Part shown: piece after piece, positions 1,952-19,825 of the stretch | Layout of the letters: each line of letters begins with the position of its first letter | Position numbering within the stretch: the first letter of the stretch is position 1 | Virus record (IMG/VR): IMGVR_UViG_3300047562_004236 | Span: 1-23,526 of that record | Source of the DNA: a virus | DNA: 23,526 nt | Strand: one strand, 5' to 3' | Notes under the pieces: generated by a model | Seen by the model: only the letters and a program-made list of their open reading frames with translations | What the model was told of the DNA's origin: nothing | Databases searched by the model: none | Program-made: the position numbers and the translations under genes

Positions 1952-3100
1952 ATGCCAAAAGAAAATATTAATTATAGTTTTACAGAAAATGGAGTTGTCT
2001 ATGATTTTTATGATGTTTTTGTTCCTGTTGAATTGTTTAGACAACCTTCTTTGTGGGTTTGGGGTCTAGGAGATGGTGGATTAAATGCTTTAAATACTGA
2101 CACTAATAGAAGAACTACTCCAGTGACCACATTTGCTGGAGGAACAAATTGGAAACAAGTTGGCGGATCTGCAGCAATTAAAACTGATGGAACCTTATGG
2201 GTTTGGGGTGGTAATGGAGGAAGACTTGGAACAAATGATACTGCAAATAGAAATACTCCAGTTACAACATTTGCTGGTGGAAATGATTGGAAACAGGTAG
2301 ATGCTACTAATTTTTATGGTTGTATGGCAGCAGTTAAGACTGATGGAACCTTATGGGTTTGGGGTACTAATTCAAATGCACAATTAGGAACAAATGATAA
2401 TATAACAAGAAGTACACCAGTCACTACATTTGCTGGAGGAAATGATTGGAAACAAGTTAGTTTGTCTAATACTGCAGTAGCAGCAGTTAAGACTGATGGA
2501 ACCTTATGGGTTTGGGGATATAATAATGGAATTAGACTTGGAATATATGATGGACCAACCATAGTATCTACTCCAGTCACTACATTTGCTGGAGGAACGA
2601 ATTGGAAACAAGTTAGCATGTCAGATAGTGATTCCGTTAAAGGAGGTGCCGCAGTTAAAACTGATGGAACCTTATGGTGGTGGGGTCTTGTCAATTTTGT
2701 TCAACTTACAAGTACCCCAGTTACCACATTTGCTGGTGGCACAGATTGGAAACAAGTTGCACTAACCAAAGCAGTTAAGACTGATGGAACTTTATGGACT
2801 TGGGGGAATACAAATGGAACTCCTGTGGATACTACTATTGCTACACCAGTCACTACATTTGCTGGAGGAACAAATTGGAAACAAGTTGCTTTTGATGGTG
2901 TTCACCATGTAGCAGCAGTTAAGACTGATGGAACCTTATGGGTTTGGGGTGATGGAGGTGAAGGAAAACTTGGAACAAATGATACTACATCTAGAAATAC
3001 TCCAGTAACCACATTTGCTGGAGGAAATAATTGGAAACAGGTTCATACACATACCGGTACTAACACGGTTGCAATAAGATATGATAATTTTAATATATGA
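1952..3100 (+). CDS. RCC1-like seven-repeat beta-propeller protein
   Basis: This 382-aa protein has a short N-terminal segment (residues 1-33) followed by seven tandem repeats of about 40-56 residues. Each repeat follows the pattern LWxWG ... TPVTTFAGGxxWKQV ... AAVKTDGT, the typical RCC1-type blade. Seven such repeats fit one closed seven-bladed propeller. Repeat 5 is the shortest (about 40 residues), lacks the 'LGTND' loop and reads LWWWG. The final repeat ends AIRYDNFNI in place of the KTDGT strand. There is no signal peptide. RCC1-like proteins are common in marine phages, where a virion appendage or adhesin role is suspected; that function is inference. Nucleotide sequence is strikingly conserved between repeats. 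Its stop overlaps the next start (ATGA). Confidence 0.8.
   Translation: MPKENINYSFTENGVVYDFYDVFVPVELFRQPSLWVWGLGDGGLNALNTDTNRRTTPVTTFAGGTNWKQVGGSAAIKTDGTLWVWGGNGGRLGTNDTANRNTPVTTFAGGNDWKQVDATNFYGCMAAVKTDGTLWVWGTNSNAQLGTNDNITRSTPVTTFAGGNDWKQVSLSNTAVAAVKTDGTLWVWGYNNGIRLGIYDGPTIVSTPVTTFAGGTNWKQVSMSDSDSVKGGAAVKTDGTLWWWGLVNFVQLTSTPVTTFAGGTDWKQVALTKAVKTDGTLWTWGNTNGTPVDTTIATPVTTFAGGTNWKQVAFDGVHHVAAVKTDGTLWVWGDGGEGKLGTNDTTSRNTPVTTFAGGNNWKQVHTHTGTNTVAIRYDNFNI
2050..3062 (+). repeat. tandem in-frame coding repeats in the RCC1-like gene
   Basis: Six copies of a near-identical core beginning ACTGATGGAAC start at 2183, 2339, 2492, 2660, 2780 and 2924. The distances are 156, 153, 168, 120 and 144 bp, all multiples of three. 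A second conserved core, around ACATTTGCTGG followed by GGAAACA(A/G)GT, recurs once per unit. Conservation extends to third codon positions, pointing to recent duplication or gene conversion between units rather than old protein-level conservation. Confidence 0.85.
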
Positions 3101-16088: not shown

Positions 16089-16118
16089 ACCCGGAAAAAA
16101 AATTCCGGGTATTTTTTT
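16089..16118 (+). terminator. rho-independent terminator
   Basis: An 8-bp stem, ACCCGGAA (16089-16096) with TTCCGGGT (16103-16110), loop of six A residues, followed by ATTTTTTT. It is GC-rich against this AT-rich background and lies 10 bp after the stop of the 117-aa gene, closing the nrdC transcription unit. Confidence 0.93.
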
Positions 16119-16159: not shown

Positions 16160-16188
16160 TTGCTAAATAAAAAGGAATGGTCTATAAT
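16160..16188 (+). promoter_or_regulatory. promoter for the riboswitch-controlled micro-operon
   Basis: TTGCTA (16160-16165), a 17-bp spacer and an exact TATAAT (16183-16188). Transcription would start near 16195, exactly where the riboswitch fold begins, which strongly supports the assignment. Confidence 0.8.
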
Positions 16189-16194
16189 GACCTT

Positions 16195-16323
16195 ACGTTC
16201 ATCTCAGGAAACTGAGACGCAAGTAGGACGGCGGAACGGAACGTTCATTTGCTATTTGTGAATAGCAAACGCAAACCGCCCGAAGGAACGGGATTTACAA
16301 TCTCATTCTGGAGGAAAATCCTA
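16195..16323 (+). promoter_or_regulatory. glutamine riboswitch (glnA / Downstream-peptide type) with expression platform
   Basis: P1 pairs CGTTC (16196-16200) with GAACG (16286-16290). P2 is TCTCAG (16202-16207) with CTGAGA (16212-16217) around a GAAA loop. The conserved junction reads GACGCAAGTAGG on the 5' side and CCGAAGGAACG on the 3' side, the hallmark of glutamine-binding glnA and Downstream-peptide RNAs. P3 closes with GGCGG (16230-16234) and CCGCC (16276-16280) and carries a 9-bp hairpin, TTTGCTATT (16248-16256) with AATAGCAAA (16261-16269). Alternatives visible: CCCG (16279-16282) with CGGG (16289-16292), which would break both P1 and P3, and ACGTTC (16195-16200) with GAACGT (16239-16244). 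GGATTT (16291-16296) with AAATCC (16316-16321) would put the GGAGG ribosome site (16310-16314) in a loop. Translational control by glutamine is inferred. Confidence 0.85.
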
Positions 16324-16515
16324 ATGGCAAAAGTAACTTATAGGGGTGTTTCTTATGACACCAAAATTTATCATCAACAAAATCAAACACAAAATCAAAA
16401 TTTTGATTTGAATTATCGTGGTATTCATTATAATACACAAGTTCAACAACATCAGCAACCACAGCAATGTAATTTGAATTATCGTGGTATTAAATATGTG
16501 AAGGAAATTAACTGA
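16324..16515 (+). CDS. DUF4278 repeat peptide
   Basis: A 63-aa protein with three copies of the cyanobacterial DUF4278 motif: VTYRGVSYD (4-12), LNYRGIHYN (29-37) and LNYRGIKYV (51-59), joined by Gln/Asn/His-rich linkers. The family occurs as small proteins in cyanobacteria and their phages, with no known activity. GGAGG at 16310-16314, 9 nt before ATG 16324, sets the start; an in-frame extension upstream would run through the riboswitch and is rejected. As first gene after a glutamine-type riboswitch it is presumably made according to nitrogen status. Gln-rich linkers are notable given the ligand, though this may be coincidence. It overlaps the next start by 1 nt. Confidence 0.85.
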   Translation: MAKVTYRGVSYDTKIYHQQNQTQNQNFDLNYRGIHYNTQVQQHQQPQQCNLNYRGIKYVKEIN

Positions 16516-16613
16516 TGAAAAAATTAAACTTTCTTCAATTAATTAAAACACAAAAAGAAAAAGAAAACCGTCGCCATCAAGCACAACTTGTTCATTTAGT
16601 TGGAGCAAAATAA
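16515..16613 (+). CDS. 32-aa basic peptide
   Basis: MKKLNFLQLIKTQKEKENRR followed by HQAQLVHLVGAK: a short basic, probably helical peptide. Its ATG shares one base with the DUF4278 stop (TGATG), and its own stop shares one base with the next start (TAATG), the classic signs of translational coupling. AAGGAAAT in the end of the DUF4278 gene can serve as ribosome site. I do not recognise the sequence. Real translation is supported only by the tight packing of three frames between riboswitch and terminator. Confidence 0.6.
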   Translation: MKKLNFLQLIKTQKEKENRRHQAQLVHLVGAK

Positions 16614-16696
16614 TGGCAGTTGTCACTCAAATTACAATCGCATCTGCTTTTACAATTACTTTATTATCCATTCTTATTCAGTGTTTATATAAGTAA
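16613..16696 (+). CDS. 27-aa membrane peptide
   Basis: MAVVTQITIASAFTITLLSI followed by LIQCLYK: almost the whole peptide is one hydrophobic helix of about 20 residues with a short Lys-ended tail. Such size and shape match tiny single-span membrane peptides, including small subunits of photosynthetic complexes or membrane regulators, but no motif allows a name. It is coupled to the 32-aa gene by TAATG and ends 15 bp before the terminator, so it is the last gene of the riboswitch-controlled unit. Confidence 0.6.
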   Translation: MAVVTQITIASAFTITLLSILIQCLYK

Positions 16697-16711
16697 TTTA
16701 AAATTTATTAT

Positions 16712-16743
16712 AAAAGAAAGAGAGTTGATCTCTTTCTTTTTTT
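16712..16743 (+). terminator. rho-independent terminator of the micro-operon
   Basis: A 12-bp stem, AAAAGAAAGAGA (16712-16723) with TCTCTTTCTTTT (16729-16740), loop GTTGA, continuing into TTT. It is weak in GC but long, and has the U run. Its loop and 3' arm also contain the -35 element of the next promoter. Confidence 0.82.
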
Positions 16744-18004: not shown

Positions 18005-19825
18005 ATGGCAAGAAGAAAAAGAACAGAACAACCAATTGGTGTTGGTCTTACTATAAGGCAGATAAAAAGAAAAAAACCAATTAGTTTAGATTATCTTATA
18101 GATATAGATCCTCTTACAGAAAATCAAAAAAAATTATTTGATTCTTATGTAGAAGGAAAAAATATAATTGCATATGGTGCTGCTGGAACAGGTAAAGCAC
18201 AACCATTATATTCCAAAATTTTAACTCCTAATGGTTGGATTACTATGGGACAAGTTAAAATTGGTGATTATGTATTAACTCCAACGGGCAAAAAAACTAA
18301 AGTTTGTGGAGTTTTTCCTCAGGGGAAAAAGCATATTTATGAGGTTGTTTTTCACGATGGTTCTAAAACCAAGTGTTGTTTAGAGCATTTATGGGAAATT
18401 AACTGCCCCAGTGGATGGAATAGAAGAAAATCTGGAACTAAAAAAATAGTTAATACTCAATATATCATTGATTTTTTGCGTGAAAAAGAAATTAGAAAAT
18501 CTTCAACTAATATCTCAATTGATTTAATTGAACCTGTTAAAACTGATGATATTAATTTGCCTTTAGATCCTTATATTGTCGGTTGTTTAATTGGTGATGG
18601 TTGTTTAACAACTTCTACTCCCAAAATAACATCAAAAGATGATGTGTTGATTTATAAATTACAAGAAATTATTGGAGAAGAATATTACATAAATCATTGC
18701 AAATCTTCTCAATATAATTATAATTTTATTGATAAATTATCTCGCAAAAATAAAGTTAACAGAATTACTGAGATCTTAAAAGAACTTGGACTACAAGGTA
18801 AAAAGTCTTATGAAAAAATTATTCCTTCAATATATGTTAATTCAGGAACAGACCAAAAACTTAATCTCATAAGAGGATTAATGGATACCGATGGAACTGT
18901 TGATTATAAAAACGGAACAGTTTCATTTTCAACAACAAGTGAAATTTTAGCAAAACAAGTTCAAGATATTATTTGGTCTTTTGGTGGAATTTGTAAAATT
19001 ACTTCTAAAATTCCAACATATACTTATGATGGAATTAAAAAAGTAGGTAGAAAATCTTATAATGTTTGGATTACTGTTAGAAATCCAAAAGAATTATTTA
19101 CTCTACAAAGAAAAAAAGACCTTTGTAGAGAAACTTACGACAAACTTCAATACCGAAGAAAAATTAAAAATGTAAATTATGTTGGAGAAGAAGAAGCACA
19201 ATGCATTATGATAGATGATGAAAATCATCTTTATGTCACTGATGATTATATTATTACGCATAATACGTTCATCACACTTTATAATGCTCTTCGTGATGTT
19301 TTAGATGAAAGAACACCATATGAAAAAATTTATATCGTAAGATCTTTAGTTCCTACAAGAGAAATTGGATTTCTTCCTGGAGATCACGATAATAAAGCAG
19401 ATATTTATCAAATTCCTTATAAGAATATGGTAAAATATATGTTTCAAATGCCAAGTGATGTTGACTTTGAGATGCTTTATGGTAATCTTAAATCTCAAGA
19501 AACAATTAAGTTTTGGAGCACTTCTTTTTTACGTGGTGTAACGATTGATAATGCTATTGTAATTGTAGATGAATTTGCTAATCTTAATTTTCACGAATTG
19601 GATTCAATTATTACTCGTGTTGGTGAAAATTGTAAGATTATGTTTTGTGGTGATGCAACTCAAAGTGATTTGGTCAAAACAAATGAAAGAAATGGAATTA
19701 TTGATTTTATGAAAATTATTAGAACTATGCCGTCTTTTGATATTATTGAATTTGGTATTAATGATATTATTAGATCTGGAATTGTAAAAGAATATCTTGT
19801 TGCCAAATTGAATAGTGGAATGTAA
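18005..19825 (+). CDS. phoH: PhoH-like P-loop ATPase interrupted by an intein
   Basis: The 606-aa precursor contains a 356-aa intein (residues 65-420), so the spliced protein would have 250 aa, typical of cyanophage PhoH. The N-extein runs to GAAGTGK (58-64) and the C-extein resumes with T421, which together restore the Walker A loop GAAGTGKT. After the intein come YEKIYIVRSLVPTREIGFLPG, the Walker B strand AIVIVDEFANLNF and GDATQSD. PhoH is a putative RNA/DNA-linked ATPase, widespread in cyanophages and named for the phosphate-starvation E. coli homologue; its role in infection is not settled. Without splicing the P-loop would be broken and ATP binding lost, so protein splicing is probably needed for function. 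The ribosome site is poor. The stop overlaps the nuclease start (TAATG). Confidence 0.95.
   Translation: MARRKRTEQPIGVGLTIRQIKRKKPISLDYLIDIDPLTENQKKLFDSYVEGKNIIAYGAAGTGKAQPLYSKILTPNGWITMGQVKIGDYVLTPTGKKTKVCGVFPQGKKHIYEVVFHDGSKTKCCLEHLWEINCPSGWNRRKSGTKKIVNTQYIIDFLREKEIRKSSTNISIDLIEPVKTDDINLPLDPYIVGCLIGDGCLTTSTPKITSKDDVLIYKLQEIIGEEYYINHCKSSQYNYNFIDKLSRKNKVNRITEILKELGLQGKKSYEKIIPSIYVNSGTDQKLNLIRGLMDTDGTVDYKNGTVSFSTTSEILAKQVQDIIWSFGGICKITSKIPTYTYDGIKKVGRKSYNVWITVRNPKELFTLQRKKDLCRETYDKLQYRRKIKNVNYVGEEEAQCIMIDDENHLYVTDDYIITHNTFITLYNALRDVLDERTPYEKIYIVRSLVPTREIGFLPGDHDNKADIYQIPYKNMVKYMFQMPSDVDFEMLYGNLKSQETIKFWSTSFLRGVTIDNAIVIVDEFANLNFHELDSIITRVGENCKIMFCGDATQSDLVKTNERNGIIDFMKIIRTMPSFDIIEFGINDIIRSGIVKEYLVAKLNSGM
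18197..19264 (+). mobile_element. class 3-type intein with LAGLIDADG homing endonuclease
   Basis: PhoH residues 65-420, from A65 (codon 18197-18199) to N420 (19262-19264). The splicing domain starts AQPLYSKILTPNGWITMGQV and ends HLYVTDDYIITHN before Thr+1. Ala at position 1 cannot act as the class 1 nucleophile. The class 3 WCT signature is complete: W130 two residues after the block B His128 (LEHLWEI), C400 in block F (AQCIMIDDE), T418 just before the terminal His-Asn. The centre holds two LAGLIDADG motifs, IVGCLIGDGCL (191-201) and LIRGLMDTDGTV (288-299), both with the catalytic Asp, so the homing endonuclease may be active. Insertion in a phage P-loop ATPase fits the proposed phage origin of class 3 inteins. 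Confidence 0.93.

Follow-up and report, generated by a model that had tools for sequence, protein, structure and literature searches.

The window, a 23,526-nt stretch of T4-like cyanophage DNA (its SSB shares 75% identity with the SSB of Synechococcus phage S-SRM01), carries a DUF4278 micro-operon whose leader is, taking the explanation as a whole, probably a nested (double-headed) type-1 glutamine riboswitch that controls translation of the unit and is ON with glutamine. Comparison with related phages shows an outer canonical aptamer composed of P1 (strands a and d), P2a, the AGUA/GAA motif, and P3, a circularly permuted aptamer-like module (P1', strands b and c, and P2b) that caps the outer P3, and a promoter predicted to start the transcript at approximately the first aptamer base, with DUF4278 as the gene under control in the cyanophages examined. 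Host glutamine would bind at least the outer pocket and stabilise P1, leaving the ribosome site of ORF1 exposed in the manner reported for host switches; ORF1 and ORF2 would act together, as their fusions in other phages suggest, and the products may adjust host nitrogen assimilation or the PII/GS regulators when glutamine is plentiful. The combination of a riboswitch with three tiny genes suggests a virus that reads its host's nitrogen state. If confirmed, the element would be a naturally occurring double riboswitch that owes its form to nesting and circular permutation, not to tandem repetition, with protein-coding genes placed inside aptamer loops of relatives, and it raises the question of whether cyanophages read host glutamine and what purpose the DUF4278 peptides serve. 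Since many cyanomyovirus genera and metagenomic phages share the element, it is relevant to viral responses to nitrogen state in the ocean.

A gathering-threshold scan of the 23.5 kb against Rfam produced a sole match, the glutamine riboswitch RF01739 at 16194-16294 (+), with 39.4 bits against a cut-off of 35 and an E-value of 1.8e-5, which places the element in that family and settles the covariance search that the original prediction had proposed. That prediction had described a glnA/Downstream-peptide fold, of which the type 1 (glnA) assignment stands and the Downstream-peptide assignment falls: the halves scored 24.6 and 20.3 bits with RF01704 (Glutamine-II/Downstream-peptide) against a cut-off of 33, and RF01704 was absent from the gathering scan. 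On the plus strand, the outer aptamer reads as the P1 5' strand (a, 16196-16200), the P2a hairpin TCTCAG-GAAA-CTGAGA (16202-16217), J2/3 CGCAAGUA with its AGUA strand (16218-16225), the P3 5' strand GGACGGC (16226-16232), and, at 16282-16290, the GAA strand followed by a G and the P1 3' strand GAACG (d). The AGUA and GAA strands together form what we take to be an E-loop-like motif. Between the two P3 strands lie the inner P1' hairpin GAACG-GAA-CGUUC (b-c, 16234-16246) of the nested permuted module, the P2b hairpin (16248-16269), and the inner CGCA junction, which continues into the P3 3' strand AACCGCCC (16270-16281). The RF01739 core elements CGUUCA, CGGAAGUA, and GAAGGAACG are present in one junction, save that CGC stands for CGG; AGUA and GAA fall in the same junction solely under the nested topology, and the Rfam alignment places a 52-nt insert in P3. 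P1 is followed by a putative hairpin GGGAUU-UAC-AAUCUC (16290-16304), whose GGG/YCC pairing is weakly conserved among 110 linkers and whose 3' strand is able to pair with the ribosome-binding site instead. That site, GGAGGA, was located by sequence at 16310-16315; the bracketing ascribed to it is a weak feature that is not clearly conserved.

Relatives came from viral contigs scanned for DUF4278 (80 loci retained), from viral contigs scanned for the hairpin pattern, and from named phages; at least 141 distinct elements in at least 160 loci show the strict nested pattern. Within the DUF4278-based sample it was present in 66 of 80 loci; of the 14 remaining loci, a contig end truncates six (L010, L011, L019, L040, L061, and L067), five have the nested form with changed letters (L033, L037, L038, L046, and L047), L057 is without its 3' end, L069 has collapsed to a single element, and L045 was placed in none of these classes. 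One viral contig, L138, holds one single canonical aptamer. For covariation, 41 insert-free phage elements were aligned, leaving out the window and its two identical relatives, and a covariance model built from these 41 elements recovered the held-out window with 77.2 bits (E 2.1e-18) over positions 1-89 of 89. RF01739 matched 18 of 20 named phage records at E <= 0.01 and exceeded the cut-off in 6; the two phages without a match, P-RSM4 and P-HM1, bear a further insert in P2a. Conservation of the riboswitch across cyanophages is thereby supported.

Control is probably translational, since no terminator stands between the aptamer and the first gene. On the best reading, the switch would turn ON to signal high host glutamine, and the peptides would adjust nitrogen regulation. 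In the opposite reading, an OFF switch, P1 formation would free AAUCUC (16299-16304) to pair with GGAGGA, and constrained single-sequence folding of the window leader agrees with it to the extent that enforcing P1 left the ribosome site paired more, not less, and so less accessible. We nevertheless regard an OFF switch as unlikely: the anti-P1 pairing of the window (GGAAC with AUUC) is not evident in 110 aligned linkers, and host type-1 and type-2 switches raise DUF4278/gifB expression with glutamine according to the accessible text of PMC6316151.

An unlikely alternative to glutamine-responsive control is that the phage aptamer has been remodelled so that glutamine binding was lost or another ligand adopted, leaving a leader that is constitutive or under other regulation. 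In the outer J2/3, the window and most phages have CGC where nearly all host aptamers have CGG, so affinity could differ; AAA replaces GAA in 54 of the 141 elements listed, and several phage elements lie under the Rfam cut-off (the 6 of 20 records noted above being over it). Against such remodelling, the core letters are otherwise invariant in the 41-row phage alignment, phages and hosts share the regulated gene family, and Glutamine-II aptamers too carry CGCA in their model consensus.

The host counterparts are simpler. RF01739 was matched at E <= 0.001 in 72 of 386 genomes from the phylum of a Crocosphaera MAG, with 62 over the cut-off, and the nested pattern was flagged in none of 70 host loci; where the aptamer was read in these loci it was single, approximately 48-93 nt long, with AGUA and GAA together. 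The best score of the phage model was 39.6 bits in the 70 host loci and likewise 39.6 in the 386 genomes, compared with 77.2 for the window, and its matches in the host genomes span approximately 49-62 nt without the inner module. The nearest host likeness of ORF1 lies in 66-75 aa triple-YRG DUF4278 proteins of small-genome cyanobacteria, whose genes sit behind a single aptamer with different P1 letters. This small-genome type-1 variant, with a CGUUG...CAACG P1 before triple-YRG DUF4278 genes, was seen in L372-L381 and L384, and some of its representatives score under the RF01739 cut-off. As a separate observation, nine host loci (L343, L350, L365, L368, L397, L401, L402, L404, and L405) have glutamine riboswitches before non-DUF4278 ORFs, including short membrane-type ones.

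The original prediction of a closed unit with genes of 63, 32, and 27 aa and a terminator was confirmed in that the ORFs and both flanking terminators were located. A terminator at 16089-16110 precedes the unit, and a 12-bp intrinsic terminator closes it at 16712-16740 (+). ORF1 (16324-16515, +; 63 aa) has three YRG repeats and belongs to DUF4278 (PF14105, 46.1 bits against a curated cut-off of 25.3, 6.4e-12), matching phrog_5049 as well (1.1e-20). ORF2 (16515-16613, +; 32 aa) is an LIKxQxxKExRRHQAQL module that matches the N-terminal half of phrog_545 (9e-5), and ORF3 (16613-16696, +; 27 aa), whose start overlaps the ORF2 stop, is a predicted single-TM peptide. In phages, the ORF2-type module was represented by 54 distinct cropped sequences, either free-standing or fused to DUF4278 at the N-terminus (phrog_545) or at the C-terminus (L157 and L179); since the fusions occur in either order, ORF1 and ORF2 would be functionally linked. 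Hydrophobic, single-TM-like micro-ORFs of the ORF3 kind, some of them near-identical, were found in 9 of 23 loci with a free ORF2. On the sequence comparison, then, the three-gene unit is real with ORF3 optional: both peptides behind DUF4278 belong to the same unit as had been proposed, and conservation across cyanophages holds for DUF4278 and ORF2, and for ORF3 in the loci just counted.

The first gene behind the element is DUF4278 in nearly all cases listed, the exceptions including L194, in which an ORF2-like module alone follows, and a few ends that are cut or ambiguous; each of the 20 named phage records has exactly one DUF4278 match. In the window, the micro-operon is followed at a short distance by thyX and a PhoH gene. 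The PhoH-like gene (18005-19825) is apparently interrupted by an intein, with a C-terminal part that matches PhoH and residues approximately 40-425 that match terminase, DnaC-like, and primase profiles, themselves probably intein-bearing. Elsewhere in the window (1952-3100) a 382-aa ORF consists of repeated TDGTLWVWG/TPVTTFAGG units, and its neighbours resemble glycosyltransferases and methyltransferases by eye. In other phages a manA RNA (RF01745) adjoins the glutamine riboswitch unit, following DUF4278 in P-RSM6 (L005, 2727-2912) and preceding the riboswitch in L012 (1-139).

The sensing of glutamine by a glnA-type RNA had been linked by the original prediction to glutamine synthetase inhibitors, and the accessible text of PMC6316151 provides part of that link: cyanobacterial glutamine riboswitches mostly accompany DUF4278 genes, including gifB, which encodes IF17, and DUF4278 constitutes the N-terminal part of this inhibitor. 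The same text describes that part as dispensable for inhibition, and the phage protein is without an IF tail, which makes the link an indirect one. The IF7-like C-terminal region is absent from ORF1, which is thus outside the IF17/IF7 group. One could suppose that ORF1 and ORF2 are the two parts of a divided IF17-type inactivating factor and inhibit host glutamine synthetase, as IF17 combines DUF4278 with a C-terminal IF7-like region (PMC6316151, accessible text, and the host proteins examined) and the fusions in L157 and L179 join DUF4278 and the ORF2 module in the same order. We give this idea little credence, as the ORF2 module, compared by profile with 23 host IF regions, gave a probability of 0.42%, with 61 of 300 column shuffles scoring as high, and host DUF4278 proteins of the picocyanobacterial type likewise are without an IF tail. 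Descent of ORF2 as an IF7/IF17 remnant, suggested by a 17-residue ungapped likeness seen by eye, was rejected on the same profile comparison and shuffles. A structure search found no solved structures of DUF4278/IF proteins.

The promoter was identified as TTGCTA - 17 nt - TATAAT at 16160-16188 (+) by a scan and by comparison with related phages. Within the window, promoter-like pairs occur at chance level (7 found, 7.1 expected). Upstream of 133 distinct related phage elements, a sigma-70-like pair (TTG[AC].. - 16/18 - TANNNT) is present in 114, compared with a mean of 4.0 and a maximum of 11 in shuffled controls, although related sequences can exceed such a null without structure, and the -10 end mostly falls 7-10 nt before the aptamer. 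The comparison supports a transcript start that coincides, as predicted, with the first aptamer base or lies close to it. An inverted repeat surrounds the -10 element (GGTC-TATAAT-GACC, 16179-16192, +), with a 4-bp arm in the window; its stem reaches at least 5 bp in 87% of the 133 upstream regions versus 28% when shuffled, and its arms differ among phages (GGTC-TATAAT-GACC, TGTGTTAGTATTAACACA, and others), so that it could possibly be an operator or a transcribed hairpin. The T4-type late promoter TAAATA is also overrepresented upstream (63 of 133 versus 17.9 shuffled). It was rejected as the sole promoter, the sigma-70-like pair being far commoner, and a late-type promoter alone was seen in MA10, S-H34, and a few others; both kinds may be in use.

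The nested architecture is carried by the relationship between the two halves of the element. Across the 141 elements listed, the first half contains the AGUA strand and the second GAA (87) or AAA (54), and the P3 strands pair across the halves, with the observed complementarity reached in 0 of 10,000 permutations, both for all elements listed and for their 31 distinct combinations. The 41 aligned phage sequences contain 31 cross-half P3 cells with double changes versus 8.5 when shuffled (0 of 500), tests subject to the same caution about related sequences, and covariation was zero for local P3 helices of the tandem type. Pair 43-90 of P3 occurs as AU (10), GC (10), and UA (10), with zero breaks in the 30 rows where it is present, and pair 35-99 as AU (30), GC (7), GU (3), and one other in 41 rows; positions 38-96 and 41-93 are mostly mismatched (34 of 41 and 20 of 30 rows), a constant feature that counts against a perfect helix in this alignment. 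RNAalifold applied to 42 elements gave the nested P1 pairs probabilities of 0.986-0.999, the b-c pairs 0.998-0.999, and the tandem pairs 0, and the enforced nested fold was lower in energy than the tandem fold in 42 of 42, by a mean of 3.2 kcal/mol. In L033, the inner P1' has changed to CAACG/CGTTG; compensation preserves the b-c pairing, and the tandem pairings a-b and c-d would be mismatched. Strand listing often mis-assigned the outer strand a inside P2, and from it the b-c result and the loci with a long P2a alone were used. Taken together, these comparisons identify the 52-nt P3 insert as a second, circularly permuted aptamer-like module, nested so that P3 is common to both and with its own predicted P1 closed by a GAA/GAU loop. 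Two complete serial aptamers, each with its own P1, P3, and AGUA/GAA, were not found in the window, and an explanation of the insert as tandem aptamers chimerically aligned by Rfam was discarded because P3 is complementary across the halves and because of the b-c change in L033. A tandem reading was first suggested by each half scoring about 30 bits alone as RF01739 (30.1 at 16194-16242; 30.3 at 16240-16294), and tandem glnA RNAs have been published (PMC2864571; the accessible text of PMC9481103 counts 157 doublets and 4 triplets), yet two independent aptamers with a-b and c-d P1 helices and pseudo-cooperative control as in doublets are very improbable given the cross-half P3, the divided AGUA and RAA strands, the L033 compensation, and the folding energies.

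In 99 of the 141 phage elements listed, the P2b loop is expanded and carries a small ORF, as in P-SSM2; the S-PM2 element is without this ORF, and the window element has neither the P2b insert nor the P2a insert described below. In 92 of these 99 the stop of the P2b frame lies over the [GA]AA strand (one of the 92, L169, being a 6-aa artefact), in 3 the stop lies just before the P2b 3' arm, and 4 have no stop inside the element. Across 229 comparable pairs among the elements listed, with core-overlapping codons dropped, the dN/dS of this ORF had a median of 0.24 and was always below 1. The family corresponds to phrog_504, annotated in phages as T4-like GC 430 or 541. Such 49-66 aa ORFs, under purifying selection and usually ending on UGA/UAA over the aptamer RAA strand, include that of P-RSM6 (L005, 2319-2524) and those in L008, L015, L020, L021, L326-L328, L330-L332, L334, L335, L337, L339, L340, and many other loci. 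P-RSM4 (L329, 1040-1250) and P-HM1 (L338, 1036-1250) have a second annotated ORF, T4-like GC 429, in the outer P2a loop, with a UAA stop that overlaps the AGUAA strand at AGUA, and further loci with a long P2a exist. We tentatively entertain a broader interpretation, which we consider less likely than not to be correct in full, in which the RNA would be a pseudo-two-fold-symmetric riboswitch with a permuted aptamer set into P3 of a canonical aptamer, and glutamine would be bound cooperatively by both pockets via the shared P3. Most phages would host small genes in the P2 loops with stops drawn mostly from the aptamer core (UGA/UAA over RAA, and UAA over AGUA in P-RSM4 and P-HM1), so that ribosomes and ligand would compete for the RNA, and the window would be a streamlined form.

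Glutamine riboswitches in cyanophages and before cyanobacterial DUF4278 genes are already in print, the former mentioned or listed in the accessible texts of PMC9602691 and PMC9964418, and other marine phages have them as well (PMC9004378, accessible text). The kind of riboswitch is thus known, and it is the nested architecture that looks new: searches of the main texts of open-licence papers turned up no account of a glutamine aptamer that is nested or permuted, of ORFs within one, or of phage DUF4278 control, and the natural permuted RNAs listed in the accessible text of PMC10085705 include no riboswitch. The methylophage Melnitz, a phage of OM43, likewise has a glutamine riboswitch next to thyX, linked in the accessible text of PMC9004378 to ssrA and not, as in the window, to DUF4278. 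The S-CREM1 glnA RNA is likewise an RF01739 element in a T4-like cyanophage, and its length of 99 nt points to the same nested form, although the accessible text of PMC9964418 describes no nested structure and names no regulated gene. IF17 (gifB) and the DUF4278 proteins of the picocyanobacterial type share with ORF1 the YRG-repeat DUF4278 domain behind a glutamine riboswitch; IF17 bears an IF7-like C-terminus that ORF1 lacks, and the 66-75 aa triple-YRG proteins are nearer. The doublets of Sherlock et al. 2022 (PMC9481103) likewise have two aptamer-like units per leader, arranged in tandem with pseudo-cooperative control according to the accessible text, whereas the phage element is nested with crossed halves; in that main text the words "nested" and "insertion" are absent and "permut" occurs once, for ribozymes. 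Compared with the type 1 (glnA) RF01739 of cyanobacteria, the phage element shares the P1-P2-P3 junction, CGUUCA, AGUA/GAA, GAACG, and a position in the DUF4278 5' UTR, and differs in a P3 held in common with a permuted module, found in none of the host loci examined, and in mostly having CGC for CGG.
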